In this document: positions 28,602 through 36,232 of the stretch, piece after piece
Layout: each line of letters opens with the position of its first letter
Numbering within the stretch: position 1 is the first letter of the stretch
Assembly (NCBI GenBank): GCA_958295775.1
Contig: CATQHC010000002.1
Coordinates: 1,139,830 to 1,203,829, forward strand
DNA: 64,000 bases
Reading direction: 5' to 3'
Source of the DNA: Chloroflexota bacterium
Lineage (GTDB): Bacteria; Chloroflexota; UBA11872; VXOZ01
The notes under the pieces: model-generated
The model's database searches: none
Told to the model about the DNA's origin: nothing
The model's input: only the letters and a program-made list of their open reading frames with translations
Made by a program: the position numbers and the translations under genes

Positions 28602-30227
28602 ATGTCTGCCCCAGCACACCACGCTGAAACACGCCAAAGGGTGCTCTCCGTGAAGCAGATCGTCTTCGTGCTCATATTATCCGTAGGCATAGCCGCTTGC
28701 GGCGCACCAGAGGAGGCAGGATTGACGCCGTCGCCGACGGCGCAACCAACCGCTACGCTGCTGCCAAGGCCAAAACCGCCGGCGCAACCGAGACCGACAC
28801 GCGAACCCAAACCGACGCCCGCGCCGCTCCGCGAATACGTCGTGCAACCCGGCGACACCCTCTACTCCCTCGCGCGCCGCTTCGGTGTTGACCTGCACGC
28901 ACTCGCTGAATTCAACCGGATTGCGGATCCGAGGAAAATCTACGTCGGTCAACGGTTGCTCGTCCCATCCGACGCAATTATAGCGACTGCGCCGCCGGCC
29001 AGGCCCACGCCGCCGCGCGTCCACGGTGTCGATTGCGCCTTCCGGTTCGGCTTCAAGGAACTCTACGATCTCATTCCCAATACTGTCGGTCAGTGCCTGG
29101 AGACTGAGCAGTATAACGTCAGCGGCGATAGCTTTCAACGAACTACCGGCGGTCTCTTGGTTTGGCGCAAGGCCGACAATATGACCACGTTCACGGACGG
29201 CTACTGGACTTGGATACATGGAGAAAAGGGTCTCCAGAAACGGCGCAATAGCGAACGCTTTGACTGGGACCCGCTCGATTCGAAACTTGCAGATGCGATT
29301 GAGACGCTGCGCACCACACCCAGCGGGGAGCGAGTCTACACACTGTTCATGCAGTCGGGCGCCACGGCGCAATTCGGGCTATTGGAGGGCCTGTCATCCT
29401 ACTCCACTTACCGCAACCTCATCATCATTAACGAACAGTACCGCCATGAAAGCCCCGAGGCACTCGCCCACACGCTCATTTGGCCGGCAGTAGGGCTGTA
29501 CAACGAGGCGGAGCGGTCGCAATCCTGGAGCGAGTGCATGGAGCGCGTGATCGACCAAGAGACCGCGCAAGCCCAGTGGTGGCGCGAACTGTTTGGCGTG
29601 GACGGCAAAGGCAATCCGACGGATTTGGAGCGATGGGCAAACTACGAAGTTGCCCTGCTTGTCAATGAGAGCCTGCGCTACTGGGTACGACTAAGTCCTC
29701 ATTATCGTGAACAGTGCGTAAAGTACGGAGCACCGCCGCAGCACATCGATCCGGTACTCGCCAAGGCGTATCGGACGGCGCTGATGGGAGGCGAATCCAC
29801 ACTGGGAAAGGCGGCGGCCGCAACGGTCATTGCCGCCAAGACGGGCGTCGTGTTCGGGCCGGCGGAAGGCTACGGCTATTACTTCCCTGCCCATAACCGC
29901 ATCGTTGTTAGAGAAGAACTCCGCAACGCGAGCGCCGACGTGCTAGCGGCCGTGCTTATACACGAGACCATGCACGTAGCGCAGTATCGGGAGCGGAGCG
30001 GACTGCGTTCACCGGCCGAGTGCGTCGAAGATGAAATCGAAGCGTTCAAAGCGGAAGCCCAGTGGTGGGCGGAGTGGCACGGTCACGATGGTAAAGACAA
30101 TCCTAATCAGGTAGAGCAGCGTATGAACGAACTGATGTACGCTTGGCTCACTGAGCTGCTGGAAGCGTTCGTACTGCTGAGCGACGGTTACCAGGAACAG
30201 TGCTTGGGCGGCATTGTAGATTCATAG
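28602..30227 (+). CDS. LysM lipoprotein with duplicated peptidase-like domain, second copy carrying HExxH
   Basis: 541 residues. An N-terminal signal sequence ends in a lipobox (AAC, Cys33). A Pro/Thr-rich linker (41-75) and one LysM domain (about 78-122, YVVQPGDTLYSLARRFGV) that should bind peptidoglycan follow. Two ~150-residue copies of one domain come next (about 225-375 and 382-535). The copies align at EQYRHESPEALAHTLIW/EELRNASADVLAAVLIH and at AQAQWWRELFGVDGKGNP/AEAQWWAEWHGHDGKDNP. The second copy has the zinc-protease motif HETMH (454-458); in the first the same place reads IWPAV. An in-frame GTG at 28650 is an alternative start giving a more typical signal peptide. No named family was recognised for the repeated domain. 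Confidence 0.82.
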   Translation: MSAPAHHAETRQRVLSVKQIVFVLILSVGIAACGAPEEAGLTPSPTAQPTATLLPRPKPPAQPRPTREPKPTPAPLREYVVQPGDTLYSLARRFGVDLHALAEFNRIADPRKIYVGQRLLVPSDAIIATAPPARPTPPRVHGVDCAFRFGFKELYDLIPNTVGQCLETEQYNVSGDSFQRTTGGLLVWRKADNMTTFTDGYWTWIHGEKGLQKRRNSERFDWDPLDSKLADAIETLRTTPSGERVYTLFMQSGATAQFGLLEGLSSYSTYRNLIIINEQYRHESPEALAHTLIWPAVGLYNEAERSQSWSECMERVIDQETAQAQWWRELFGVDGKGNPTDLERWANYEVALLVNESLRYWVRLSPHYREQCVKYGAPPQHIDPVLAKAYRTALMGGESTLGKAAAATVIAAKTGVVFGPAEGYGYYFPAHNRIVVREELRNASADVLAAVLIHETMHVAQYRERSGLRSPAECVEDEIEAFKAEAQWWAEWHGHDGKDNPNQVEQRMNELMYAWLTELLEAFVLLSDGYQEQCLGGIVDS

Positions 30228-31386: not shown

Positions 31387-31499
31387 TGCTGGGGTAGTGA
31401 ATTCTCTAGGTTTCTTGCTCATTTCCCGGACGTATTCCTTCGTTGTGGAAGATAGTGCGAAGGATAGTAGGGCTTGGGCATGGGGAAGGAGGGAAGCAA

Positions 31500-32159
31500 T
31501 TGGAATACCAGATAGAGGGCAATCCCGCGTACGGACACCTTAGCGTACGGCTCGGTCCCGGCGAGCAATTCATCGCCGAGGGGGGCAGCATGGCGTGGAT
31601 GTCGGAGGGCGTGCAGGTAAAAGCGCGCCTGCTCGGCGGTTTCCTGCGCGCGTTCTTCAGGAAGTTGGTGGGCGGCGAGTCGCTCTTCGTCGGCGAGTAC
31701 AGCCACCCGACCGGCGGAGAGGTGGCGTTTTCACCCTCCATTCCCGGCAACGTCGGGCACCGCGCGCTGGCCGGTAACTCGCTGGTGCTGACCGGAGGGT
31801 CGTTCATGGCGGCCACGCCCGGCGTGCAACTCAAGATGAGATTTGGCGGCTTCAAGAGCATGTTTTCCGGCGAGGGCATGTTCCTCATCGAGTGCAGCGG
31901 TAACGGGGACTTGTTCTTCAACACCTTTGGTGCGCTCATCGAAAGGGAAGTCGAAGACGGCTTCACCGTCGATACCGGCCACGTGGTCGCGTGGGAGCCT
32001 ACGGTGGACTACTCGATTCGCGGCATGGGCAACCTGAAGAGCACGCTGCTTTCGGGCGAGGGTCTGGCAATGCGGTTTACGGGCCGGGGCAAGGTGTATC
32101 TCCAGACCAGAACCTTGGGGTCGGTCGCCAACTGGCTCATGCCATTCCTGCCGGCATAG
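31500..32159 (+). CDS. AIM24 family protein (TIGR00266 type), copy 1 of 3
   Basis: 219 residues of the AIM24/TIGR00266 beta-prism family: YQIEGNPAYGHLSVRLGPGE, FIAEGGSMAWMS, GGFLRAFFRKLVGGESLFVGEY and VDTGHVVAWEPTVDYSIRG. TTG start chosen because AAGGAGGG ends 6 nt upstream and because family members begin with this strand; the open frame extends further upstream without support. The role in bacteria is not established; yeast Aim24 is a mitochondrial protein tied to membrane organisation. It is first of three paralogues in a row, with gaps of 16 and 1 bp. Confidence 0.88.
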   Translation: MEYQIEGNPAYGHLSVRLGPGEQFIAEGGSMAWMSEGVQVKARLLGGFLRAFFRKLVGGESLFVGEYSHPTGGEVAFSPSIPGNVGHRALAGNSLVLTGGSFMAATPGVQLKMRFGGFKSMFSGEGMFLIECSGNGDLFFNTFGALIEREVEDGFTVDTGHVVAWEPTVDYSIRGMGNLKSTLLSGEGLAMRFTGRGKVYLQTRTLGSVANWLMPFLPA

Positions 32160-32175
32160 AGGAGGTAGCGTAGCA

Positions 32176-32868
32176 ATGGCCAAATGCACACTCACCGGCG
32201 GCGGAGGCTTCAAGGCCGCGCTGGTGGAAATCGGACCCGCTGAAAAATTCATGTCGGAGGCGGGGGCAATGTTTCGCACCTCCGACAACGTGGACGTCCA
32301 GGTCACCACGCGCACCCGGTCCGCGGGCGGGCTGTTCGGTGGCATCAAGCGGATGTTCGCCGGCGAGAGCTTCTTCCTCTCGGAGTACCGAACGACGGAC
32401 GGACGCGGCGGCGAGGTGGGCCTCGCGCCCACTCTGCCCGGCGACGTGGCGCTCATCTCGTGCACGGGGCACAACAGTTGGGTATGCGCCGGGGGCAGCT
32501 ACATCGGCTCGTCCGAAAACCTGGGGCTGGATACGGAATTCCAGGGCCTTGGCGGGATGTTCTCAGGCGAGTCGCTCTCGTTCCTCAAGGTCGATGGCGT
32601 GGGAGATTTGCTCGTGAGCGCGTTCGGCGCCATCCGGGAAATCGACGTGGACGGCGCGTTTACCGTTGACACGGGCCATGTGGTCGCGTTCGAGGACTCG
32701 CTGACCTACTCCCTCGGCAAAGCGGGCGGAAGCTGGCTCCAGTCTTTCCTCGCGAGCGAGGGCATAACGCTTAACTTCAGCGGGCGCGGCAAGCTGTACG
32801 TCCAGAGCCACAACCCCAAGGAGTGGGGAGGCACATTGGGCGGGCTGCTGCCGGAAAGGAAGCAATGA
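32176..32868 (+). CDS. AIM24 family protein, copy 2 of 3
   Basis: 230 residues with the same motif order as its neighbours: VEIGPAEKFMSEAGAMFRTS, GLFGGIKRMFAGESFFLSEY, LGGMFSGESLSFLKVDGVGD, VDTGHVVAFEDSLTYSLG. It differs most at the N-terminus (AKCTLTGGGGFKA). ATG start with GGAGGT about 10 nt upstream. The paralogues are similar in layout but quite diverged, so the duplication is old; they may form hetero-oligomers. Confidence 0.87.
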   Translation: MAKCTLTGGGGFKAALVEIGPAEKFMSEAGAMFRTSDNVDVQVTTRTRSAGGLFGGIKRMFAGESFFLSEYRTTDGRGGEVGLAPTLPGDVALISCTGHNSWVCAGGSYIGSSENLGLDTEFQGLGGMFSGESLSFLKVDGVGDLLVSAFGAIREIDVDGAFTVDTGHVVAFEDSLTYSLGKAGGSWLQSFLASEGITLNFSGRGKLYVQSHNPKEWGGTLGGLLPERKQ

Positions 32869-32869
32869 G

Positions 32870-33550
32870 GTGAATTACGAGATAGCGAGCCGGCCGACTT
32901 ACAGCGTCCTGGAGGTCGGCCTCGACCCCAACGAGTCTGTCGTAGCGGAGTCCGGCGCGATGGTGTGGATGAGCAGTTCGATCCAACTCAACACCTCGGC
33001 GCGGGGAGGCATGTTCAAGAGCCTGCGTAGGTCCGCGCTCGGCGGCGAGAGCTTCTTTCAAAACGTCTTCGAGGCGCAAGACGCCCCTGGCGTCGTGGCG
33101 TTTTCGCCGGGGCAACCCGGCGACATCGTGGCCGTCGACCTCAGCCGCGGCGACGTGCTTATGGAGGACAGCGCCTACCTGGCCTCGCAGCAGGACGTCA
33201 CCATCGACACCACCTTCCAGGGTTTCCGGGGCTTCTTCAATGAAGGTCTCTTCATCCTCAGGGCCACCGGCAGCGGACTGCTCTTCTTCAGCGGCTACGG
33301 AGACATCGAGGAGATCGAGGTGAATGGCACGTACATCGTGGATAACGGTCACGCTGTGGCGTGGGAGCCGACGCTGACGTATGAGATTACGCGCGGCCGC
33401 TCCATCCGTTCGTTCCTGTTCTCGGACCAGTTGCTGCTAAGATTCGGCGGCCGCGGCCGGCTGTGGGTCCAGTCGCGGAATCCCCAAGCACTGGCCAACT
33501 GGGTGCACCCCTTCAGAGCCATCGAGAGCCAGGACTCCGACGACGACTAG
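32870..33550 (+). CDS. AIM24 family protein, copy 3 of 3
   Basis: 226 residues: NYEIASRPTYSVLEVGLDPN, VVAESGAMVWMSSSIQ, FKSLRRSALGGESFFQNVF and VDNGHAVAWEPTLTYEITRG. It ends in an acidic ESQDSDDD tail. GTG start one base after the previous stop; AAAGGA lies at the end of the preceding gene. It closes the three-gene unit. Confidence 0.88.
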   Translation: MNYEIASRPTYSVLEVGLDPNESVVAESGAMVWMSSSIQLNTSARGGMFKSLRRSALGGESFFQNVFEAQDAPGVVAFSPGQPGDIVAVDLSRGDVLMEDSAYLASQQDVTIDTTFQGFRGFFNEGLFILRATGSGLLFFSGYGDIEEIEVNGTYIVDNGHAVAWEPTLTYEITRGRSIRSFLFSDQLLLRFGGRGRLWVQSRNPQALANWVHPFRAIESQDSDDD

Positions 33551-33896: not shown

Positions 33897-34033
33897 TCTG
33901 ACCGCCAGCAGCAGGCAGCGCCCGACCGGAACGCGCTCCCGCGCCGCCTGGATAGGACCCACCGCTCTCGGCCCAACAGCGGAATGTCCGGGGAATGGGC
34001 ATTCCGCCACACAGTCAAAAGGAGATTGCCGAA

Positions 34034-36232
34034 TTGAGCGCAGCCACTTCTCATACCCGTTGGTTGGCGGTCTTGGGAGTCTTGCTCCTCATTGTGATTC
34101 TAAGCGCCTGCGGTGAGAGTCCGGCGCTCACTGCTACCCCCGTAGCTACGCACACGCCGACACCGACGCCCATCCCCGCGAGTCCAACGCCGGAGCCATC
34201 CGCCGCCATTGCCGAGCTTGATGTCAGCATCGATAGCGGTACTGTCTGGCGGGAAGTGTTCGTTACGCTCACCACCGGCGAGCAAGCGTGCATCCGCAAC
34301 GCGCTGGGCAATGAGTTAGAGACGGCGCTGGGCCGGCCTATCGTGAGCGAGAGCGACAGCCCGGAGCAGTGGGAGGTGTCCATATTTTCCTGTCTCGCTC
34401 CGGAAATTGCCCGTGCCGTCTACTTCTCCGTTGTGATCGCTGAGATGCAAGAGGACGTGGAGTTGAGCGAGGTCGAACTGGCCGGCCTGCGGGAGTCGGT
34501 GGCCGCTACCGACGTGGCGGCCGTGGTTGCCGCCATGGTTGCCGAAGCCGACGATCACTCTGCGGCTGCGGCGTTCATCTCCGACTTTGTGAGCTGCCTG
34601 CCGGACCTACTCCTCTCGACCATGGTCGCGGAGATGGGGTTGGAGTGGGAAGAGTTGAGCGAGGACGAAGTAACCTGCTTGCGCGGGTTGCTGGCTGATA
34701 TTGACTGGGGCGCCTTGCTCTTCGCCGCTGAAGACTTCGAGGCGTATGCGGACTTTGCCGTCAGCGTGATTTCTTGCGTCCCGGCCCTACTCCTGTCCAG
34801 CGCGCTGGGTGAAGAGGTGGAGCTGAGCGAGGCAGAAGCGTCCTGCCTGCGGGAGGCGTTCGCCGCTATCGACATAGTCGCCCTGCTTACCGCCACTGAC
34901 GACCTCGCCATGTTTGCGGCGCTGGCGCCGGACATAGTGGGGTGCGTCCCGGACCTGTTCGTTTCCATCTTCATCGCGGAAACGGGGGCGAGTATAGAAG
35001 ACTTGAGCGCGGAGGAGCGGGACTGCCTGCGGGAGTCGATCGTCGCTATCGACTGGGCGGCCGTGGTTGCTGATGACTCTACTGCTGTGTCCGCGGCGTT
35101 CTCCGCCTTCTTTTCTTGCGTTCCGGGCCTACTCCTCTCCGCGGCGTTCGGAGAGGACATAGAACTGAGCGCAGACGAGGCGACCTGCCTAAGGGAGTCG
35201 TTCGCTGCTGTTGACATTGCCGCCCTGCTTGCCGGCACTGACGATACCGATGCGGCTGTGAAGTCGGTCGCGGCGCTGCTAAACTGCGTTCCACACCTGT
35301 TCTTTGCCGGCCTGACCGAGGATGGAGAAGCATTGAGCGAGGAAGAAGCGGCCTGCCTGCGGGAGCTGGTAGCCGCTACCGACCTCGCCGCCCTGCTTGC
35401 CTCTCCCGACGACTCCGCCGCGTACGTGGAGTTCGGCGTCGGGCTGTTGAACTGCGTGCCGGACCTGTTGAGCGCAGGGGATGAGGGAGACATAGCTCCC
35501 GTCTCCGACAGCGTCGACGACCACGCCGGCTCAGTCGAAGAGGCCACCGCTGTAACGGTCGGAGAGCCTGTGCCGGGCGAACTGGACTACGCGGACGACA
35601 CCGACTTCTTTGCGTTCCAGGCAGAGGAGGGCGTGTTCTATCAGATAGACGTGGCGCTGGGAACGCTCTCCGACTCGCTGGTTGGACTGTATGATGCTGA
35701 CGAGCAGGCACTGGCGTACAACGACGATCACGGCGATTCGCTGGCCTCGCGCATCATCTGGGAAGCGCCGCGCTCGGGTGTGTACTACGTTGCGGTGGAG
35801 GGCTACGGCGCCGGTTCGTATACTCTGACGGTGGCCGTTTCCAATGTCACGGACGACCACGCCGGCTCAGTCGAGGAGGCCACCGCTGTAACGGTAGGAG
35901 AGCCTGTGCAAGGCGCGCTGGACTACGCGGACGACACTGACGTCTTCGCGTTCCAGGCAGAGGAGGGCGTATCCTACCAGATAGACGTGGCGCTGGGAAC
36001 GCTCTCCGACTCGCTGGTGGGACTGTATGACGCCGACGAGTTGTTGCTGGCCTTCAACGACGATCACGATGATTCGCTGGCCTCGCGCATCGTCTGGGAA
36101 GCGCCGCGCTCAGGCGGATACTACATTGCGGTGGAGGGCTATGGCACCGGTTCGTATACTCTGACGATCACTGTGTCCGACGTCAGGGACGACCGCGCCG
36201 GCGCAACTGGATTCCCGCTTTCGCGGGGATAA
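34034..36232 (+). CDS. Acidic lipoprotein of seven Cys-bearing helical repeats and two PPC domains
   Basis: 732 residues. The signal peptide has lipobox LSAC, followed by a Thr/Pro linker. Residues ~80-480 form seven repeats of about 57 residues with the pattern CLR, 31-34 residues, then CVP-DLLL, and an acidic LSEEE link; the second repeat lacks its first Cys. Predicted helices and paired cysteines suggest a disulfide-linked solenoid outside the membrane. Residues ~495-700 hold two PPC-like domains (pre-peptidase C-terminal type; DYADDTDFFAFQAEEGV, GSYTLTV). A third PPC repeat begins (DDRAG) but stops in residues encoded by a dispersed palindrome. TTG start with AAGGAG 8 nt upstream preferred; an ATG at 33995 would add 13 residues. 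No family recognised for the helical repeats. Confidence 0.8.
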   Translation: MSAATSHTRWLAVLGVLLLIVILSACGESPALTATPVATHTPTPTPIPASPTPEPSAAIAELDVSIDSGTVWREVFVTLTTGEQACIRNALGNELETALGRPIVSESDSPEQWEVSIFSCLAPEIARAVYFSVVIAEMQEDVELSEVELAGLRESVAATDVAAVVAAMVAEADDHSAAAAFISDFVSCLPDLLLSTMVAEMGLEWEELSEDEVTCLRGLLADIDWGALLFAAEDFEAYADFAVSVISCVPALLLSSALGEEVELSEAEASCLREAFAAIDIVALLTATDDLAMFAALAPDIVGCVPDLFVSIFIAETGASIEDLSAEERDCLRESIVAIDWAAVVADDSTAVSAAFSAFFSCVPGLLLSAAFGEDIELSADEATCLRESFAAVDIAALLAGTDDTDAAVKSVAALLNCVPHLFFAGLTEDGEALSEEEAACLRELVAATDLAALLASPDDSAAYVEFGVGLLNCVPDLLSAGDEGDIAPVSDSVDDHAGSVEEATAVTVGEPVPGELDYADDTDFFAFQAEEGVFYQIDVALGTLSDSLVGLYDADEQALAYNDDHGDSLASRIIWEAPRSGVYYVAVEGYGAGSYTLTVAVSNVTDDHAGSVEEATAVTVGEPVQGALDYADDTDVFAFQAEEGVSYQIDVALGTLSDSLVGLYDADELLLAFNDDHDDSLASRIVWEAPRSGGYYIAVEGYGTGSYTLTITVSDVRDDRAGATGFPLSRG

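Follow-up and report, generated by a model that had tools for sequence, protein, structure and literature searches.

The window analysed here, a 64,000-nucleotide stretch of DNA from a Chloroflexota bacterium, contains a gene for a predicted lipoprotein in which a LysM domain and a further conserved domain precede two homologous peptidase-like halves, hereafter referred to as copy 1 and copy 2 (Table 1). Gene order across window positions 17–39 kb is conserved with the close relative G004, whose syntenic orthologue is 78% identical to the window protein. Because this orthologue begins at the codon equivalent to the GTG at 28650 (residue 17) and the 16 extra residues encoded upstream are unshared, translation probably starts at that GTG, which would give a plain lipoprotein signal with the lipobox IAAC33. 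Two further features lie downstream: three consecutive AIM24 genes (window 31443–33550), for which the syntenic region of G004 holds no matching DNA, and a lipoprotein-like open reading frame (ORF; window 33995–36232) in which repeated modules containing Cys precede PPC-type domains.

Table 1 Features of the tandem gluzincin-like lipoprotein gene, in window positions.
Feature	Position	Strand	Length, evidence or basis
ORF	28602..30227	+	541 aa; ORF list
Likely translated part	28650-30227	+	GTG start, 525 aa; orthologue starts at equivalent codon
Lipoprotein signal, lipobox IAAC (Cys33)	28650..28700	+	Read from sequence
LysM domain, residues 79-122	28836..28967	+	Pfam PF01476, E 5.7e-16
Shared N-terminal domain, residues 139-224	29016..29273	+	Common in relatives and many paralogues
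Copy 1, inactive gluzincin-like domain, residues 225-376	29274..29729	+	Homology; helix/strand order as copy 2 in model
WPAVG, lost HExxH site of copy 1, residues 294-298	29481..29495	+	Alignment; [W/Y]P[T/A] in clade
Val316, lost third ligand of copy 1	29547..29549	+	Alignment to copy 2
Copy 2, active-type gluzincin domain, residues 382-537	29745..30212	+	DUF6782 27.6 bits alone; AlphaFold2 pLDDT 92.5
HETMH, zinc/catalytic motif, residues 454-458	29961..29975	+	H, E, H invariant in 35 active-type domains
Glu478, predicted third zinc ligand (C474+4)	30033..30035	+	Invariant in 35 active-type domains; next long helix

The LysM domain scores 58.6 bits against a Pfam cut-off of 20.9 and the lipobox can be read directly, so the initial annotation of the gene product as a LysM lipoprotein stands. 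Its attachment to peptidoglycan is plausible, given the LysM domain and a genome that also encodes transpeptidases and other LysM proteins; however, among the tandem proteins that we gathered, LysM is limited to the window protein and its orthologue. The shared N-terminal domain, which the initial annotation had not described, has no match in Pfam or NCBIfam. It carries the conserved pattern C.FRFGFK.L.DLI...TTGGLLVWRKADN.T.FTDG and precedes many different C-terminal parts in relatives; a search with the whole protein matches 58 of 61 genomes, mostly owing to this domain. The ratio of non-synonymous to synonymous substitution (dN/dS) is well below 1 along the whole chain.

The two halves are homologous, as had been proposed. 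Copy 1 and copy 2 share 38% identity across 118 residues (BLASTP, E 5e-21), and a profile–profile comparison of families built on each half aligned 154 columns with an E value of 1.9e-35. In an AlphaFold2 model of residues 139–541, pLDDT is mostly above 90 in both copies, and the order of helices and strands matches between them.

To describe the active site, we aligned 35 active-type domains from the genus and the class. The columns that never vary are H, E, H, Cys, Glu and Ala, arranged as HE..H and C...E..A, and a second Cys is nearly invariant. Since HExxH and C...E were the features by which the domains had been selected, the constancy of those letters is in part a product of that choice; the place of the motifs in the alignment and the invariant Ala lay outside the selection criterion. 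HETMH occurs in the second half only, and a candidate third metal ligand, Glu478, follows it. In the AlphaFold2 model of copy 2 alone, computed with 35 sequences, HETMH is on one helix (64–83 in the model) and Glu478 on another (90–112). We infer that copy 2 is a gluzincin-type zinc peptidase, which would bind zinc through HExxH and Glu478 and cleave a presumed target by proteolysis. The sole Pfam peptidase family matching copy 2 near its cut-off is DUF6782 (PF20573), a putative metallopeptidase family: against a cut-off of 27 bits, its profile scores 27.6 with copy 2 alone, 26.4 in the whole protein and 25.6 in the genome scan. It matches 20 of the 35 active-type domains at E 0.01 and none of the inactive copies, and our literature search found no paper mentioning it. 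The inverted HxxEH motif of M16 peptidases is absent, the motif being HETMH, and no M16 Pfam family matches.

A sequence search against solved structures gave no match, and a Foldseek search with the copy 2 model gave none with an E value of 0.001 or better. Its top nine matches were all minigluzincins (best probability 0.99, E 0.036), followed by weaker ones, with E values above 0.001, to ArdC, IrrE/PprI and a DNA–protein-crosslink repair protease. In minigluzincins, HExxH is followed by a Glu further downstream. The closest folds of known structure are jannalysin, abylysin and selecase (PDB 4jix, 4jiu and 4qhf–4qhj), at Foldseek E values above 0.001, but these are single small archaeal proteins, whereas the window protein is secreted, carries an inactive twin and adds a conserved Cys pair and extra C-terminal helices.

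Copy 1 has lost this site entirely. The initial annotation had noted IWPAV at the place of HETMH; the loss is real, although the aligned residues are WPAVG, IWPAV starting one residue earlier. With WPAVG and Val316 at the corresponding positions, copy 1 lacks every metal ligand and the catalytic Glu. The alignment thus confirms the annotated pairing, within a single chain, of one half with an intact active site (HETMH and Glu478) and one in which each catalytic residue has been replaced. Both Cys are nevertheless retained in copy 1, as are the WW and G..G region and the core hydrophobic residues. The relatives of copy 1 show comparable replacements: each of the 12 copies in its clade (the WP clade) has [W/Y]P[T/A] at the old active site, and the third-ligand Glu is also missing in 21 of the 24 genus copies that lack HExxH. 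The three others are WP-clade copies with a Glu in the third-ligand column and no HExxH. In WETVL-type copies, the Glu at the catalytic position is kept, and both His and the third Glu are lost. Twelve columns are conserved in the inactive WP clade and not in the active clade, among them the pseudo-site Pro and a Trp that precedes the first Cys.

We then examined how active-type and inactive copies are distributed in the genus, sampled as six genomes, all Chloroflexota metagenome-assembled genomes (including JAPPLM010000002, JAJEAH010000076 and JAAXIC010000047). In the genome carrying the window, the domain model finds 14 matches, including the two window copies. Of 14 multi-domain proteins found in the genus, the window protein among them, 13 contain exactly one active-type copy, which is always the last, C-terminal one and follows one or two inactive copies; the exception, L090, has two inactive copies. 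Single active-type and single inactive proteins also occur, the latter (L011, L012, L079, L083, L084 and L089) indicating that an inactive copy does not always depend on an active one in its chain. One single-copy active-type paralogue lies on a 2,406-base stretch that is 100% identical between L015 (1270–3675, contig C2) and L009 (6741–9146, contig C9) of genome G000; the identity would reflect a duplication that is very recent, a mobile copy or an effect of assembly. Elsewhere in the class and in the sampled phylum, each copy of the domain that we examined stands alone, and nearly all are active-type; KQTVH in L101 and L131 is one exception. No tandem copies were found among these class and phylum matches; one weak domain, in L113, is reported in two pieces. 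Across the phylum, then, the pairing is unusual for this domain family, as had been suggested; inside the genus it is not, an inactive copy followed by an active one being a theme there and not a one-off. Given this recurrence in many related proteins of the genus, the inactive half probably serves a purpose of its own.

The history of the inactive copies bears on whether copy 1 is merely a functionless, decaying duplicate. When the catalytic columns were left out of the tree, inactive copies clustered with inactive copies of other proteins and not with their own partners, in clades that are well supported (support 99/98 for WP, n = 12; 97/97 for WE, n = 6; 100/99 for GS, n = 3). A single clade of all inactive copies was rejected by the AU test (p 0.02), indicating that activity was lost more than once; a single origin of the d1-type inactive copies (the WP, WE and GS clades and two single ones) was not rejected (AU p values of 0.13–0.15). 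Repeated loss, together with the loss of activity in the second copy of L090 as well, would fit decay. By contrast, the inactive copies are under purifying selection. Between the window protein and its G004 orthologue, dN/dS is about 0.22 for the inactive copy and 0.25 for the active-type copy; the other inactive and active-type pairs gave 0.18 versus 0.04, 0.17 versus 0.31 and 0.52 versus 0.22, and proteins with inactive domains only gave 0.19 and 0.10. Overall, inactive copies range from 0.10 to 0.52, mostly near 0.2, comparable with active-type copies. Their wide retention over the genus and their own conserved residues likewise argue against decay, which we consider very improbable.

The spacing between inactive and active-type copies is also conserved within a subfamily. 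In that of the window protein, the spacer between the inactive and the active-type copy is 8–9 residues in all eight pairs, whereas at the two junctions between inactive copies it is 18 residues long and rich in Pro and Thr, and ahead of copy 1 it ranges from absent to about 38 residues. This pattern suggests that the last inactive copy and the active-type copy are held in a fixed arrangement, although longer linkers between inactive and active-type copies occur in the L013 pair (27 residues) and in WE-type pairs (15 residues). One alternative is that copy 1 is an intramolecular inhibitor, a zymogen-like lid released by cleavage or ligand binding: inactive copies lie directly N-terminal to the active one, where pro-domains sit, across a short conserved spacer, and several minigluzincin zymogen structures are among the closest folds. 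However, no conserved cleavage motif was seen in the spacer between inactive and active-type copies, and inactive domains also occur as single-domain proteins, so that an inhibitory role seems distinctly unlikely. Those same single-domain proteins, conserved as their dN/dS values show, would fit inactive copies that are separate adhesin or ligand-binding modules, each with its own partner, sharing a chain with a peptidase that acts independently. The conserved residues specific to the inactive clades and the two inactive copies in some paralogues point the same way, but in pairs the active-type copy always directly follows, at a spacer length kept in the main subfamily, and we regard this reading as rather unlikely.

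Known enzymes offer partial parallels. Anthrax lethal factor, a gluzincin, has an N-terminal domain whose fold is akin to that of its catalytic domain but which lacks the zinc motif; the protein appeared among the weak Foldseek matches, but no sequence relation was found, and its organism, domain context and delivery differ. A literature search on duplication in lethal factor found nothing pertinent. M16 enzymes (pitrilysin/insulin-degrading enzyme and MPP) need an active and an inactive homologous half together, the inactive one being essential (PMC11266112, PMC12731061). Their fold and HxxEH motif differ from those of the window protein, making this an analogy only. In single-chain M16 forms, the active half comes first and the inactive half second, the opposite of the order here. 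In the M14 enzyme carboxypeptidase D, a secretory-pathway protein with tandem peptidase domains, most active-site residues of the third domain are replaced (PMC11266112); its fold is unrelated, it has two active domains and the inactive one is last. Pairs of active and inactive peptidase domains in one chain are thus established in M16A/C and carboxypeptidase D (PMC11266112); as far as we could find, none has been reported for this gluzincin family.

Our preferred reading, to which we assign a probability of about 0.5, is that the gene encodes a secreted gluzincin anchored by lipid and LysM, with the inactive copy retained as a substrate-binding or scaffold half. The product would be a lipid-anchored surface protein comprising LysM, a lineage-specific domain and two gluzincin-fold domains. 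Copy 1 would be an old duplicate that lost zinc and catalysis and is held by selection as a non-catalytic half, most likely at fixed geometry beside the active domain, where it may help to hold or select the substrate or stabilize the enzyme, a role like that of the inactive half of M16 enzymes. The regulatory or scaffold use suggested by the initial annotation is consistent with the data.

Few families are known in which a pseudopeptidase and its active twin share one chain, and the present case points to a family of secreted peptidases in Chloroflexota that has yet to be described. Within a single genus, the same small domain occurs in active-only, inactive-only, inactive–active and inactive–inactive–active forms, which provide a natural series in which to test the contribution of an inactive enzyme copy. 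A broader reading, possible though on balance doubtful, is that inactivated gluzincin domains form a lineage toolkit, a new class of binding module in which the pseudo-site [W/Y]P[T/A] replaces HE and which is rigidly docked before an active twin, in mixed inactive–active, inactive–inactive–active and inactive-only arrangements. If so, the inactive modules would diversify recognition by a surface protease.
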